Positions 15,423 through 63,517 of a stretch of DNA of 64,000 nt are shown here, piece after piece (the stretch's first letter is position 1; every line of letters starts with the position of its first letter). The notes beneath the pieces were generated by a model, which had not been told where the DNA came from, ran no database searches, and saw only the letters and a program-made list of their open reading frames with translations. The stretch comes from Spirochaetaceae bacterium (GTDB taxonomy: Bacteria > Spirochaetota > Spirochaetia > B11-G9): NCBI GenBank assembly GCA_015493635.1, contig WGCU01000081.1, forward strand, positions 1-64,000, given 5' to 3'. Made by a program: the position numbers and the translations under genes.

Positions 15423-16109
15423 ATGCTTGCACAAATACTCATGCACTACGTACTCTCATCCCGGCATTGTCTTCTCTGCAATAAAAATGAGATTGATAGC
15501 CCTCTATGCCACCGGTGTCTGACAAATCTTCCACTTCTGAAAGGTCAAAGATGCGCTGTATGCGGTACTCCTCTTCTTTCTGAATATAACATCTGTATGC
15601 GCTGCAGAGACCGCCAATTTTCATTTATCAGAAACCACTCACTTTTTGCTTATGAAGGAGCGGTAAAAGAACTTATCTATCAGTATAAATTTAACAATGA
15701 AAAACGGTTAGCAGAAGTATTTGCACACCTTCTTTTTTATGAGTACCTTTCCGATAACCCTTATCCGACGGTGATCGTTCCTGTTCCAGCCAGAAAAGTA
15801 ACAATACAGAGGAGAGGGTGGGATCATATGGAAACAATTTCACGATGTCTCAAAAAAAAATATAATGTTTCGGTGGTAAATCTCCTTGAAAGGAAAGGAA
15901 AAACTTCACAAAAATCATTGGACTATGAAGGAAGAATACATAACCTCAGAGGGAAGATACATGTCAAAAAATATCAGTCTCCCATGCCGGAAAAAGTTAT
16001 CCTCATTGATGATGTATTTACTACTGGTGCTACTCTTGAACAATGTACTGTTGCTTTACATTCTGCCGGAGTTAAAGAGGTGGAGACTCTTACCCTTGCT
16101 CTTGACTAA
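15423..16109 (+). CDS. comF: ComF-family phosphoribosyltransferase-like protein
   Basis: ComF proteins are linked to DNA uptake in competent bacteria and also occur in many species not known to be competent; the exact biochemical role is unclear. The 228-residue product has two paired-cysteine zinc sites (C16/C19 with C29/C32, C44/C47 with C58/C61) and a type I phosphoribosyltransferase domain with V-P-V-P and the PRPP loop V-I-L-I-D-D-V-F-T-T-G-A-T. Start is ATG 15423 or ATG 15441. It follows mutS by 21 bases and precedes a hairpin terminator. No other competence genes are seen here. Confidence 0.88.
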   Translation: MLAQILMHYVLSSRHCLLCNKNEIDSPLCHRCLTNLPLLKGQRCAVCGTPLLSEYNICMRCRDRQFSFIRNHSLFAYEGAVKELIYQYKFNNEKRLAEVFAHLLFYEYLSDNPYPTVIVPVPARKVTIQRRGWDHMETISRCLKKKYNVSVVNLLERKGKTSQKSLDYEGRIHNLRGKIHVKKYQSPMPEKVILIDDVFTTGATLEQCTVALHSAGVKEVETLTLALD

Positions 16110-16130
16110 TTAAACACTACCTGCTAGATT
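16102..16130 (+). promoter_or_regulatory. Candidate promoter for rimP-nusA operon inside the comF 3' end
   Basis: TTGACT (16102-16107) at the comF stop codon and TAGATT (16125-16130) are exactly 17 bases apart, a good sigma-70 layout with five and four consensus matches. A transcript starting near 16137 would contain the whole hairpin at 16158-16183 in its leader before reaching rimP. Confidence 0.4.
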
Positions 16131-16157
16131 AAATGAAGCATTATTATTCTTACTTCG

Positions 16158-16183
16158 AAGGAGTCGCTAACGACTCCTTTTTT
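16158..16183 (+). terminator. Rho-independent terminator or attenuator before rimP
   Basis: AAGGAGTCG (16158-16166) pairs perfectly with CGACTCCTT (16171-16179) around a four-base loop CTAA, and a run of six T (16178-16183) follows. This is a textbook intrinsic terminator. It ends one base before the rimP ATG at 16185, and its left arm contains the only AAGGAG-like sequence near that start. It may terminate the tamB-comF unit, attenuate the nusA operon, or do both. Confidence 0.8.
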
Positions 16184-16184
16184 A

Positions 16185-16634
16185 ATGGCGGCTATGGAAT
16201 ACAGAGACAGAAAAAGCACACTTTTAGAAGAAATCGAACCTGTTATTAGGGGTCTTGGATATTCACTCGTTGATTTCACTGAGAAACGCAGCGGGAATAA
16301 TCTGAATGCAGGTATCGTTATTTATAGGGAAAGCGGGATTACTCTTGACGACTGTACTCTTGTCCATAGAGCTGTTTTACCAAGAATAGAAATGATGGAA
16401 GAAACCCATGATGTTTATCTTGAAGTATCCTCTCCGGGGATGTCAAGAAACATTAAAACAGTTGAAGAGCTTATTGTGTTCTCCGGACGGAGAATAAAAG
16501 TTCTTTTGACAGATGAATCAGAATGGATTACAGGAAGAATATCATCAGCAGAAAAAGATTCGTTAACGCTGAAAACAAAAGATGATACACTTGTTGTTAA
16601 TTATGATACTATTAGAAAAGCTAAACTTGATTAA
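16185..16634 (+). CDS. rimP: Ribosome maturation factor RimP
   Basis: RimP helps mature the 30S ribosomal subunit. The 149-residue protein shows family blocks: an N-terminal E-P-V-I-R-G-L-G-Y-S-L-V-D, then L-E-V-S-S-P-G-M near the domain junction, and a C-terminal SH3-like barrel. Start is ATG 16185 or ATG 16194; neither has a normal ribosome site, since the nearest AAGGAG is buried in the hairpin 16158-16179. It is followed by nusA and infB, the order conserved widely in bacteria. Confidence 0.92.
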   Translation: MAAMEYRDRKSTLLEEIEPVIRGLGYSLVDFTEKRSGNNLNAGIVIYRESGITLDDCTLVHRAVLPRIEMMEETHDVYLEVSSPGMSRNIKTVEELIVFSGRRIKVLLTDESEWITGRISSAEKDSLTLKTKDDTLVVNYDTIRKAKLD

Positions 16635-16657: not shown

Positions 16658-18151
16658 ATGGCTTCTGGACTTGCTGATGCTATCAGGAATCTCGTTCAAG
16701 AGAAGGGGATATCCGAAGATTTGGTACGAAAAACAATTGAAGATTTCCTGTATGCTGCATACAAAAGGAAATTTGGTACCGTGGAAAATGCAGTGGTACG
16801 TTTTAACGATGATTTTTCAAATGTTTCGATTTTTGCCCGTAAAAGTATCGTTAATGAAGTAGAGGATCCTGTTTATGAAATAGGAATTGAAGATGCTCTC
16901 AAACTCAATGATGAATGTGAACTGGGAGACGAACTTCTCATCGAAATCAGTCCTCAGGACTTTGACCGTGGAGCTGTACAGAGTGCTAAACAGAAAGCAC
17001 GGCAGACCCTGCGGGAGATCCATAAAGATACTCTTTACTCTGAGTTTAAGGATAAAGAGGGAGAGATGATTATAGGGTATCATCAGCGTGAACGTAACGG
17101 GAATATCTTTGTGGATTTGGGGAAAATTGAAGGTATACTACCCAAACGTTTTCAGTCTCCCCGTGAAAGCTATCGTCCAAACGATAGAATAAAAGCTTTA
17201 ATTTATGAAGTAAGTAAATCCCCTTCAGGTCTTCAAATTATTCTATCAAGAACTCACACTGATTTTGTAAAACGTATTTTTGAATTAGAAGTTCCTGAAA
17301 TTTATGATAAAACAGTTGAAATCTTTAAAATAGTAAGAGAACCCGGATACCGTACAAAAATCTCTGTCTACTCAAACCGGGATGATGTTGATCCTGTCGG
17401 TGCGTGTGTTGGTATAAAGGGAGTAAGAATTCAATCTATTGTAAGAGAACTTGAAGGAGAAAAAATAGATATACTGAAATATGAAAATGACCAGCGCGAG
17501 TTTATTAAAAATGCACTCTCTCCGGCAGAAGTTGAGAATGTTGTTATTTTAGACGAAGCAAAACGGCAGGCTTTGGCAATTGTTAATGAGAGCCAGCTGT
17601 CCCTGGCCATTGGGAAACGGGGTTTAAATGTCCGTCTTGCTAATCGATTGGTAGATTGGAACATTGATGTAAAAACAATTGAACAATTTGAAGAAATGGA
17701 TATTTCTCTTGATTCCAAGCGGGAATTGAACGCTTTATTTGGTGATATAGAGGAGGAAGAAGAAATAACCTCTATTTCAGAATTACCGGGTATATCTGAA
17801 CATCTTGTTAAACTGTTAAATGATAACGATATAACATTGATTGAAACGCTTGTTGCCATGGATAAAGATGATCTTGCCAAACTCGATGGGATTACTGAAG
17901 AAGCCATTAAGAGTATACAGTCAATTATAGCTGAGAGTGTTGATATTATTGAGGAAGAGGAACCTGAAGAACCAGAACCAGAACCAGAAAATGAGGTTGC
18001 AGAGGGTGCAGAACAGGAAGAGGAAGAACCTGAAATGTATGAATGCCCGGAATGCGGAGCTCCCATCTCGATTGAAATGACGACATGCCCGAACTGCGGA
18101 GTCGGACTGCGCTTTGAAATAGAAGAATCAGAAGAAGATATCAGTGAATAA
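16658..18151 (+). CDS. nusA: Transcription elongation/termination factor NusA with a C-terminal zinc ribbon
   Basis: NusA binds RNA polymerase and nascent RNA and controls pausing, termination and antitermination. The 497-residue product has the polymerase-binding N domain (1-125), an S1 domain (about 135-200, with F-V-D-L-G-K-I-E-G), two KH domains (about 230-345, with A-I-G-K-R-G-L-N-V-R-L), a helix-hairpin-helix acidic-repeat-like region (365-430), and an acidic linker (about 433-460). It then ends with C-P-E-C-G (C463, C466) and C-P-N-C-G (C477, C480), a zinc-ribbon pattern that I do not know from well-studied NusA proteins. A GAGGAGGA site precedes the ATG. A perfect inverted repeat spans its stop codon. 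Confidence 0.95.
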   Translation: MASGLADAIRNLVQEKGISEDLVRKTIEDFLYAAYKRKFGTVENAVVRFNDDFSNVSIFARKSIVNEVEDPVYEIGIEDALKLNDECELGDELLIEISPQDFDRGAVQSAKQKARQTLREIHKDTLYSEFKDKEGEMIIGYHQRERNGNIFVDLGKIEGILPKRFQSPRESYRPNDRIKALIYEVSKSPSGLQIILSRTHTDFVKRIFELEVPEIYDKTVEIFKIVREPGYRTKISVYSNRDDVDPVGACVGIKGVRIQSIVRELEGEKIDILKYENDQREFIKNALSPAEVENVVILDEAKRQALAIVNESQLSLAIGKRGLNVRLANRLVDWNIDVKTIEQFEEMDISLDSKRELNALFGDIEEEEEITSISELPGISEHLVKLLNDNDITLIETLVAMDKDDLAKLDGITEEAIKSIQSIIAESVDIIEEEEPEEPEPEPENEVAEGAEQEEEEPEMYECPECGAPISIEMTTCPNCGVGLRFEIEESEEDISE

Positions 18152-18219: not shown

Positions 18220-20895
18220 ATGGCTGAAGAACAGGATAAGAAAGACAAACCAAAAGCTACTTTAATCAAACACCGGAAACCACAGGAAGCAAAACCTGTA
18301 AGCCCGAAAGTGACAGAGAAGAAGAAAGTTGTTGTTATAAAGAAAAAAGCTGCTGTTAAAAAAACTGTTCACAAGGTTGTCGCAAAAAAAGATGTATCAT
18401 CGGGTGATACCCCTGCAGTTAAACCTGTTGTAAAAGCTGTTTCAAAATCTGCTGATGCAGAGAAAACTCCTGAAAACAGTACAAAACCTTCCAAGACCAG
18501 TACCCCTGCTGAAACAGGGATTCAGAAGGATCGAACATCTCCGCCAGCCAGCACAGCCCGGACTGATTCAAAAAACAGATATCCCCAACGGCCCCGGCAG
18601 AATTATTCACGATCAGGAGAGCAGGGGGGAAGACCTCCTTATTCCGGTAATAGATCCGGTCAGGGCACAAGACCTCCTTATTCCGGCAACAGGTCCGGTC
18701 AGGGCACAAGACCTCCTTACTCCGGTAACAGATCCGGTCAGGGCACAAGACCTCCTTACTCCGGCAACAGATCCGGTCAGGGTACAAGGCCTCCTTACTC
18801 CGGCAACAGATCCGGTCAGGGCACAAGGCCTCCTTACTCAGGCAACAGATCCGGTCAGGGCACAAGACCTCCTTACTCCGGCAACAGATCCGGTCAGGGC
18901 ACAAGACCTCCTTACTCCGGCAACAGACCCGGCCAGGGCGGTAGACCACCGTACTCAGGCAACAGAGCAAAAACAGGCGGAGGATTTACCCCTGAAATAG
19001 GGAAAGATGATCTTAACAAAAAACATACAGGAAAGAAATTTTTTAAAGCCAAAAAGAAACCTGCATACCAAAAAAACAAGAAAGAACACGGAAAAGAGAT
19101 TGATTTTAACATAAAGAAAAAAACAGTTGTTATGTCCAACCCTGTACCTAAATCAATTGATATTCTTGAGGCTATCAGTGTTTCCGAACTTGCAAAGAAG
19201 ATGAATTTAAAAGCTTCGGAACTCATTGGAAAACTTATGTCAATGGGTATGATGGTAAGTATCAATCAGCAGATCGATGCTGAAACAGCGGAACTTATTG
19301 CTTCCGAGTATGATTGTAAAATAAATGTCGTCTCTCTGTACGATGAGACAATCATAGAGAAAGAAAAAAGCAGTGAACAGGATCTTGTACAGAGACCTCC
19401 TATCGTTACGGTTATGGGCCATGTTGATCATGGAAAAACAAAACTTCTCGACGCCATACGGGAAACAGACACTGTTTCCGGTGAATACGGAGGAATTACA
19501 CAGCATATCGGGGCATACAAAGTAAATCTACCCCAGGGAGATATCGTTTTTCTCGACACTCCCGGTCATGAAGCTTTTACTCTTATGCGGGCAAGAGGTG
19601 CACAGATCACAGATATTGTAATACTTGTTGTTGCCGCGAATGACGGTGTAATGCCGCAAACGGTTGAAGCAATTCATCATGCCAAAGAGGCAAATGTACC
19701 TATTATCGTTGTTATTAATAAAATTGACCTACCGGATGCAAATCCTGAACGGGTAAAACAGCAGCTTGCCGACTATGATCTCCTTTCCGAAGACTGGGGA
19801 GGATCGACATTATTCTGCAACGTTTCTGCTCTTAAAAAGGAAGGGATTTCTGAACTTCTCGATACTATACTTCTGCAGGCTGAATTATTGGAATTAAAAG
19901 CTAATCCCAATGCCCGTGCTGAAGGCAGTGTCCTGGAATCAAAAATTGATCATGGCAGAGGTATTGTTTCAAGTATTATTATTCAAAACGGTACTCTTAA
20001 AATTGGAGATGCTTTTGTTGCCGGAGTCTATAACGGAAAAGTAAGGGCTCTCTTTGACGACAAGGGGAATAGAATTGAATCAGCCCCTCCCGGAACCCCT
20101 GTAGAAGTTCTAGGATTCACAGGCGTTCCTGATGCAGGATCACCGTTTCAGGTAACAAAAACCGAAAAAATTGCCAAACAAATCGGTGAAAAACGTCAGG
20201 AATTGGAAAAGCAGGGTGAAGCAAAGAATGTTAAAAAGATTACCCTTGATAATGTGTATGATTCAATCCAGGAAGGGAAAATACAGGAGTTTAAGGTTAT
20301 CATCAAGGGAGATGTACATGGTTCAGTTGAAGCCCTGAAAAGCTCTCTGGAAAAATTATCCACTGATGAGATTCGGCTGCAGGTAATTCACGCGGCTGCC
20401 GGTGCCATACTGGAAAATGATATAAACCTTGCATCAGCTTCAAATGCCATCATTATCGGATTTCACGTCAGACCGACACCTAAAGCACAGTCCCTGGCAG
20501 ATAAAGCAAAAGTTGATATAAGAAAGTACAATATAATTTATGATGTTGTTGAAGATGTAAAATCTGCCATGGAAGGGCTCCTCGCTCCTGAACTTCAGGA
20601 AATGAATATTGGTACCGTAGAAGTACGGGATCTTTTCAAAGTACCTAAAATCGGTGTTATTGCCGGCTGCTATGTAACGAAGGGTAAAGTTAAACGTGGA
20701 TCCAGTATTCATATTTTCAGAGACGGTGTTGAAATTCATACAGGAAAAATTTCATCCTTGAAACGTTTTAAAGATGATGCAAAAGAAGTAGCGGAAGGCT
20801 ATGAATGCGGTATCGGCATAGAAAACTTTAATGAACTCAAAGAAGGTGATATTTTTGAAGTTTTTGAAGTTAAAGAAATAGCAAGGAAACTGTAA
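18220..20895 (+). CDS. infB: Translation initiation factor IF-2
   Basis: IF-2 is the GTPase that places initiator tRNA on the ribosome. The 891-residue protein has a long, basic, low-complexity N-terminal part containing nine 13-residue repeats (about residues 133-250). An IF2_N domain (about 310-365, S-V-S-E-L-A-K-K-M) and the G domain follow, with G-H-V-D-H-G-K-T, D-T-P-G-H-E-A-F and N-K-I-D. Domains II, III and the fMet-tRNA-binding domain complete it. GAGG lies seven bases before the ATG. It is in the rimP-nusA-infB-rbfA-truB unit. The catalytic core is normal; only the repeat tract is unusual. Confidence 0.97.
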   Translation: MAEEQDKKDKPKATLIKHRKPQEAKPVSPKVTEKKKVVVIKKKAAVKKTVHKVVAKKDVSSGDTPAVKPVVKAVSKSADAEKTPENSTKPSKTSTPAETGIQKDRTSPPASTARTDSKNRYPQRPRQNYSRSGEQGGRPPYSGNRSGQGTRPPYSGNRSGQGTRPPYSGNRSGQGTRPPYSGNRSGQGTRPPYSGNRSGQGTRPPYSGNRSGQGTRPPYSGNRSGQGTRPPYSGNRPGQGGRPPYSGNRAKTGGGFTPEIGKDDLNKKHTGKKFFKAKKKPAYQKNKKEHGKEIDFNIKKKTVVMSNPVPKSIDILEAISVSELAKKMNLKASELIGKLMSMGMMVSINQQIDAETAELIASEYDCKINVVSLYDETIIEKEKSSEQDLVQRPPIVTVMGHVDHGKTKLLDAIRETDTVSGEYGGITQHIGAYKVNLPQGDIVFLDTPGHEAFTLMRARGAQITDIVILVVAANDGVMPQTVEAIHHAKEANVPIIVVINKIDLPDANPERVKQQLADYDLLSEDWGGSTLFCNVSALKKEGISELLDTILLQAELLELKANPNARAEGSVLESKIDHGRGIVSSIIIQNGTLKIGDAFVAGVYNGKVRALFDDKGNRIESAPPGTPVEVLGFTGVPDAGSPFQVTKTEKIAKQIGEKRQELEKQGEAKNVKKITLDNVYDSIQEGKIQEFKVIIKGDVHGSVEALKSSLEKLSTDEIRLQVIHAAAGAILENDINLASASNAIIIGFHVRPTPKAQSLADKAKVDIRKYNIIYDVVEDVKSAMEGLLAPELQEMNIGTVEVRDLFKVPKIGVIAGCYVTKGKVKRGSSIHIFRDGVEIHTGKISSLKRFKDDAKEVAEGYECGIGIENFNELKEGDIFEVFEVKEIARKL
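18618..18968 (+). repeat. Nine in-frame 39-bp tandem repeats in infB
   Basis: R-P-P-Y-S-G-N recurs nine times at an exact 39-bp period. Occurrences start near 18630, 18669, 18708, 18747, 18786, 18825, 18864, 18903 and 18942. The consensus unit is G-Q-G-T-R-P-P-Y-S-G-N-R-S. The first, eighth and ninth copies diverge (G-E-Q-G-G, final Pro, G-Q-G-G with final Ala), while the middle ones differ mainly by synonymous changes. The near identity at DNA level suggests recent expansion by slippage or unequal exchange, so copy number may differ between strains. Confidence 0.95.
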
Positions 20896-20899
20896 CACA

Positions 20900-21250
20900 A
20901 TGGGAGACAGTATTCGGTTAAAACGGGTAGCAGCGCTTATTCAGGAAGAGATTGGCACCATGATAGTGATGGGGATTGTAAAGGATCCCCGAATCAGTCA
21001 TATGGTTTCAGTTACGTCTGTCACCGTTTCAAAAGATATAAATTACGCAAAGATATATATTTCAAGTTTTGAAAATCCCCACAGGGTAGAAAAAACAGTA
21101 GAAGCCCTGAACCATGCCTCAGGTTTTATTCAGAATAGACTCGGTAAGCGACTTAAAACACGGAATACTCCGAAACTTTCATTTTTCCCGGATCACTCAA
21201 TAGAAAACGGGGTCAGGATGACGCATATCCTTGAGGAACTCAATTCTTGA
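20900..21250 (+). CDS. rbfA: Ribosome-binding factor A
   Basis: RbfA is a 30S assembly factor needed for 16S rRNA 5'-end maturation. The 116-residue protein has the family's N-terminal R-V-A-A-L-I-Q-E-E-I-G, the K-D-P-R-I block, Y-A-K-I-Y-I-S, and F-F-P-D-H-S-I-E-N-G near the C terminus. It starts four bases after the infB stop and its stop overlaps the truB TTG start. Length is typical. Confidence 0.94.
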   Translation: MGDSIRLKRVAALIQEEIGTMIVMGIVKDPRISHMVSVTSVTVSKDINYAKIYISSFENPHRVEKTVEALNHASGFIQNRLGKRLKTRNTPKLSFFPDHSIENGVRMTHILEELNS

Positions 21251-63119: not shown

Positions 63120-63154
63120 ACCTCTGAAACCTAATAACCTGTTATAAATATAAA

Positions 63155-63517
<363 letters not shown>

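Follow-up and report, generated by a model that had tools for sequence, protein, structure and literature searches.

A putative leader attenuator of the rimP-nusA-infB-rbfA operon, conserved across spirochaetes

The window, a stretch of 64,000 nt from an uncultured Spirochaetaceae bacterium, carries a comF-type gene followed on the same strand by rimP, nusA, infB and rbfA (Table 1). The closest named record to its NusA comes from a 'Spirochaetes bacterium' of a Guaymas metagenome (85% identity). In the gap between comF and rimP, a promoter-like TTGACT-17-TAGATT is present where the original prediction had placed it; the -35 overlaps the comF stop codon TAA (16107-16109), and the 17-nt spacer (16108-16124) ends in TGC, giving an extended -10. 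Between this promoter and rimP we also found the predicted perfect 9-bp hairpin, made up of the 5' arm AAGGAGTCG (16158-16166), the loop CTAA (16167-16170) and the 3' arm CGACTCCTT (16171-16179), and followed by TTTT (16180-16183), or six consecutive T if those of the stem are included. The end of the -10 and the first stem G are 29 nt apart. Transcription would start at about 16137, as deduced from the position of the -10, and the terminator would then end about 47 nt on, in line with the 45 or so bases first proposed. The 9-bp stem has a folding energy of -12.8 kcal/mol, and folding the leader from 16137 adds a tenth, outer G-T pair.

Table 1. Coordinates of the leader elements and neighbouring genes in the window.
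Feature	Position	Strand	Basis
comF-type upstream gene	15423-16109	+	Double zinc ribbon and phosphoribosyltransferase domains (Pfam); upstream in many, not all, relatives
-35 hexamer TTGACT of the putative rimP-operon promoter	16102-16107	+	Sequence; TTGAC-type -35 with 17-nt spacer likewise placed before the hairpin in most relatives
-10 hexamer TAGATT, with TGC directly 5' (extended -10)	16125-16130	+	Sequence
Predicted attenuated leader RNA, ~47 nt	16137-16183	+	Start deduced from the -10 (promoter geometry); fold -14.7 kcal/mol
Putative attenuator, an intrinsic terminator: 9-bp stem AAGGAGUCG/CGACUCCUU, loop CUAA, U run	16158-16183	+	
rimP CDS (likelier start)	16194-16634	+	Pfam RimP_N (9.8e-16) and RimP C-terminal domain; start by family comparison
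nusA, proposed feedback regulator	16658-18151	+	Pfam NusA_N (4.5e-31), KH_5 (8.6e-29)
infB (IF2), same operon	18220-20895	+	Open reading frame and translation; GTPase motifs such as GHVDHGKT
rbfA, same operon	20900-21250	+	Pfam RBFA (2.3e-32)

The first in-frame ATG of rimP, at 16185, adjoins the T run. The rimP genes of family members, however, begin GTGGAATA, TTGGAAC or TTGGAT, which aligns with the ATG at 16194 (ATGGAATAC), and the ATG equivalent to 16185 meets a stop within four codons in 4/5 relatives. We therefore consider 16194 to be probably the true start. Further along the operon, the helix-hairpin-helix domain of NusA is followed by a C-terminal zinc ribbon (CPECGAPI..CPNCG; window 18032-18106), whose four cysteines are invariant in eight spirochaete NusAs. 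A 39-bp tandem repeat (RPPYSGNRSGQGT), 8.6 copies long, occupies 18630-18966, in the part of infB that encodes the N-terminal region of IF2.

The promoter matches 9/12 consensus positions. Promoter-like matches are no commoner in the window than in shuffled sequence (46 vs 39.3 +/- 6.5 expected), so the match is not significant by itself. Some 2% of 275-nt upstream regions have a T-run hairpin after shuffling, and the combination of promoter and hairpin is found at only one of the 51 gene starts in the window, that of rimP. A simple terminator scan overlooked the rimP-leader hairpin, probably by counting the A-T pairs at the base of the stem as stem. Our genome-wide statistics are based on the window, the fetched loci and genome searches.

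We fetched the rimP upstream regions from 95 genomes of the phylum and scored them by fixed rules for a promoter followed, after 12-60 nt, by a T-run hairpin and then rimP. All 95 loci have a NusA match 3' of rimP. A T-run hairpin is present in 81/95 regions, and a promoter lies 12-60 nt 5' of it in 68/95. Dinucleotide shuffles of the same regions gave on average 2.05 with a hairpin and 0.05 with both elements, while 368 other regions from the same loci, used as in-locus controls, gave four and one. In a second set of 75 loci with named records, which partly overlaps the first and is weighted to close relatives, 69 have the hairpin and 55 of them also the promoter. The layout occurs in 30/41 sampled families, the genomes in these counts being non-independent samples. 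The interval between the end of the -10 and the first stem G clusters at 29-35 nt, with a median of 31 nt in both locus sets, and is 26-35 nt in 46/68 leaders. Aligning this gap in related spirochaetes had been suggested as a check, and the promoter-hairpin-rimP layout does recur.

The scoring script is blind to stems with bulges or small loops. Hairpins it missed in L007 and L042 are visible by eye, and L064 has a bulged hairpin with a long T run. A genome of 1.1 Mb from the same class (L059) has no recognisable T-run hairpin before rimP, likely a loss, and several genomes of other classes (e.g. L069, L074, L091) also appear to be without one. The rimP leader of L086 keeps the GGAGTCG/CGACTCC hairpin with a long A/T extension of the stem and no T run, which hints at a role of the stem sequence beyond termination.

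In an alignment of 39 hairpins, 96.3% of cells pair. This figure is partly a matter of construction, as the hairpins were selected as hairpins; the informative part is the double changes. Six of the nine stem pairs show changes in both partners, column 10 (A-U/G-C) being a notable case, and none of 500 shuffles reached any of the observed covariation measures. The leaders also share a stem signature, GAGUCG/CGACUC, with variants GGGUC, GAGCC and GAAGUC in relatives. GRGYC is present in the 5' arm of 49/54 leader terminators vs 6/47 other terminators in the same DNA.

The exact hairpin GGAGTCG..CGACTCC with T6 occurs as one copy each in 5/40 genomes of relatives. The copies in L099, L100, L101 and the window were checked and precede rimP and nusA, and that in G001 is the hairpin of L003. 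A covariance model scores the leader hairpin at 36.3 bits, with the next best match elsewhere in the genome at 25.2, and its top match lies before rimP in nine genomes outside the training set (G400, G402, G404, G405, G406, G407, G408, G413 and G415). We looked among the other matches for a regulon sharing the hairpin and rejected this idea: the ten inspected (L102, L111, L113, L114, L117, L119, L120, L123, L126 and L129) lie mostly just past gene ends, and nine have no promoter-like sequence upstream, the remaining one (L113) having a weak one. Matches away from rimP were mostly ordinary gene-end terminators with no promoter. The GGAGTCGTTCGAACGACTCC hairpin with a T run is also found on the minus strand of L178 (4196) and L210 (4455), which may be the leader hairpin read from the opposite strand or the terminator of another gene.

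The original prediction had noted that the only AAGGAG resembling a ribosome site is inside the stem. This is correct for the present genome, but in many relatives a Shine-Dalgarno-like stretch lies after the hairpin and before the start codon. The hairpin might mainly affect how the rimP mRNA is translated or how stable it is, by sequestering AAGGAG or as a protective 5' stem, and the lack of a good ribosome site between hairpin and start here would fit such a role. We nevertheless consider it extremely unlikely: AAGGAG is separated from any rimP start by at least some 20 nt, with no start codon nearby, and the Shine-Dalgarno-like stretches of relatives are 3' of the hairpin (e.g. L018, L027). 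Moreover, GAGUCG is conserved without AAGG, column 10 is A-U instead of G-C in 20/39 hairpins, and the T run is kept.

The simpler reading of the hairpin is that it terminates only comF transcripts (from mutS-comF), rimP then depending on readthrough or on an unseen promoter in or after the hairpin. Here the hairpin lies about 50 nt past the comF stop, no other terminator fits in the gap, and comF is upstream of rimP in many relatives. Yet seven loci with a gene other than comF, or a divergent one, upstream of rimP (L012, L024, L036, L054, L057, L079 and L095) keep both hairpin and promoter; the divergent neighbours are an aldolase gene in L012, an RmlD-like gene in L024 and L036, and an MFS transporter gene in L057. 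As they remain next to unrelated or divergent neighbours, the hairpin belongs to the rimP leader. A comF terminator with readthrough explains neither these loci without a co-directional upstream gene nor the conserved promoter 5' of the hairpin, with its near-constant spacing. Together with the compensatory changes and a signature that other terminators do not share, this makes a role confined to comF very unlikely, and we reject it, although in this genome the hairpin would also end comF transcripts.

Interpretation of the locus as a leader attenuator acting on transcription of rimP-nusA-infB-rbfA, put forward with caution in the original prediction, is strongly supported: the layout is kept across the phylum, even without comF or beside a divergent neighbour, and corresponds to a documented type of element (rimP-leader). 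A promoter with a terminator about 45 nt downstream makes sense only if readthrough matters. RNA polymerase would start at the conserved promoter and transcribe some 20 nt of leader before the GAGUCG/CGACUC hairpin and U run form, and a fraction of complexes would stop at about 16183, directly before rimP, as the sequence and its conservation suggest. NusA, the product of the second gene, would probably strengthen this stop, so that high NusA would give less readthrough into the operon and low NusA more. By also ending comF-derived transcripts, the hairpin would insulate the operon and leave its expression to its own promoter and readthrough. On balance, we judge this account as a whole, a leader attenuator that also stops comF transcripts and whose readthrough is set probably by NusA, to be probable.

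Several other means of control were considered. In the window's own family, the leader pairs with the 5' arm no better than shuffled sequence does (f1 mean z 0.0), and an antiterminator was rejected there. A leader peptide was also rejected: the ATG at about 16133 starts a frame, but this codon sits no later than the predicted start of transcription, lacks a ribosome site and is not kept in relatives, just 25/68 leaders having an ATG. Since the window's family has neither a conserved leader peptide nor an antiterminator, a protein that modulates termination is the likely control. Outside this family, some loci carry an additional hairpin in the leader (e.g. UUCUUAGGGAUAAGAA), adjoining or overlapping the 5' arm of the terminator (L032, L034, L038 and L047, and also L009, L015, L016, L071, L079 and L085), in most cases stronger than in shuffled sequence; it is possibly an antiterminator or a pause hairpin.

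NusA as the effector is carried over from B. subtilis, S. agalactiae and E. coli. In B. subtilis, NusA represses its own operon through leader attenuation, and termination there is stimulated by NusA (reviewed in PMC12288461). NusA was also judged the best candidate for rimP-leaders by Naville and Gautheret (2010; PMC2965389). Both points argue against an attenuator that responds to something else, such as RimP, a cold-shock antiterminator or another RNA-binding protein reading the conserved stem. We regard such an effector as unlikely, although a sequence-specific stem leaves room for one. The stem is conserved beyond the needs of pairing, with G at columns 11 and 13 in 38/39 hairpins, and the L086 leader keeps its GGAGTCG hairpin without the T run. 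Naville and Gautheret also considered feedback by RimP (PMC2965389), and the E. coli nusA-infB operon is cold-induced, with CspA-family proteins cited as transcription antiterminators (PMC6511841).

The strong, perfect hairpin and the lack of a conserved antiterminator or leader peptide in the window's family would also suit a constitutive terminator that simply weakens transcription, insulating the operon and fixing its output with no feedback. Such an arrangement seems to us quite unlikely given the sequence-specific conservation over some 30 families and the reports of homologous leaders being regulated in other phyla. More speculatively, the short and near-constant distance from promoter to hairpin might let the terminator sample how quickly NusA joins newly escaped polymerase. 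The leader could then be a minimal NusA sensor, in which the constant ~30 nt after the -10 would test for NusA joining and GAGUCG would be read by the RNA-binding domains of NusA, which in spirochaetes has an extra C-terminal zinc ribbon; this full version is unlikely.

Very probably, the leader is a genuine feedback valve of a type described before in other bacteria, and NusA would act here by analogy with them. What appears to be a comF terminator should be labelled a regulatory leader in annotation. An attenuator that is widespread but has received little study is hereby extended across a phylum with poorly known termination control; NusA is unstudied in Borrelia burgdorferi, according to the paper describing its termination map (PMC10319736). 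With a compact leader, a stem signature and a covariance model in hand, a direct in vitro test of NusA feedback is possible.

Searches against Rfam found no riboswitch within the window. At the leader, no known Rfam element was found at the gathering threshold and none of relevance at E<=5. The Rfam model of the rimP leader itself (RF01770; 102 positions, cut-off 47 bits) matched nothing at this locus with E allowed up to 10, and exceeded its cut-off in only 1/14 control genomes. RF01770 represents a leader of the same operon, but the model does not recognise the spirochaete form. A bacterial class A RNase P RNA (RF00010, 308 bits) was found on the minus strand at 63152-63516.

Regulatory leaders of this operon are documented elsewhere, and they differ in build. 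In E. coli, the terminators t1 and t2 lie upstream of rimP in the metY-rimP-nusA-infB operon, which is controlled by its own NusA (PMC6511841). Terminators 5' of rimP are a shared feature, whereas multiple promoters, a tRNA gene and RNase III sites belong to the E. coli leader and are not seen in the spirochaete one. In B. subtilis, entry of transcription into the operon is governed by an intrinsic terminator within the leader (PMC12288461), as proposed here, but the leader of rimP (ylxS) is given as ~180 nt (PMC2965389), vs the ~47 nt predicted here. In the S. agalactiae rimP operon (gbs0413-0418), short and long RNAs share one start and termination occurs 31 nt past it (PMC4448216). An intrinsic terminator a few dozen nt past the start, predicted in our case, is common to both leaders; that of S. 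agalactiae was shown by RNA-seq, while the spirochaete leader is known from sequence alone.

A further comparison is with rimP-leader, described by Naville and Gautheret (2010) as the most ubiquitous attenuator, found before rimP-nusA-infB operons. Their published set includes Firmicutes and Gammaproteobacteria, and spirochaetes go unmentioned in the main text. As described there, rimP-leader has a GGGc..gCCC stem and no antiterminator, with NusA suggested as the regulator (PMC2965389). The spirochaete leader occupies the same place before the same operon, identified here from RimP, NusA and RbfA by Pfam and from IF2 by its open reading frame and motifs. Its hairpin and T run lie in the expected 4-130 nt 5' of the gene (the T run ends at 16183 and the gene begins at 16185 or 16194), and the hairpin is likewise short, with a G-rich 5' arm and a C-rich 3' arm. 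As in the published description (PMC2965389), the stem sequence is conserved in leaders and not in ordinary terminators, and no antiterminator structure is seen, in our case in the window's family. The difference lies in the signature itself, GGGc..gCCC in PMC2965389 vs GAGUCG..CGACUC in spirochaetes, with GGAGUCG..CGACUCC in the window and GGGUC or GGGCC in some relatives only. Judged by these features of sequence, the spirochaete form is a lineage form of rimP-leader, with the same layout but outside the GGGc..gCCC sequence class.
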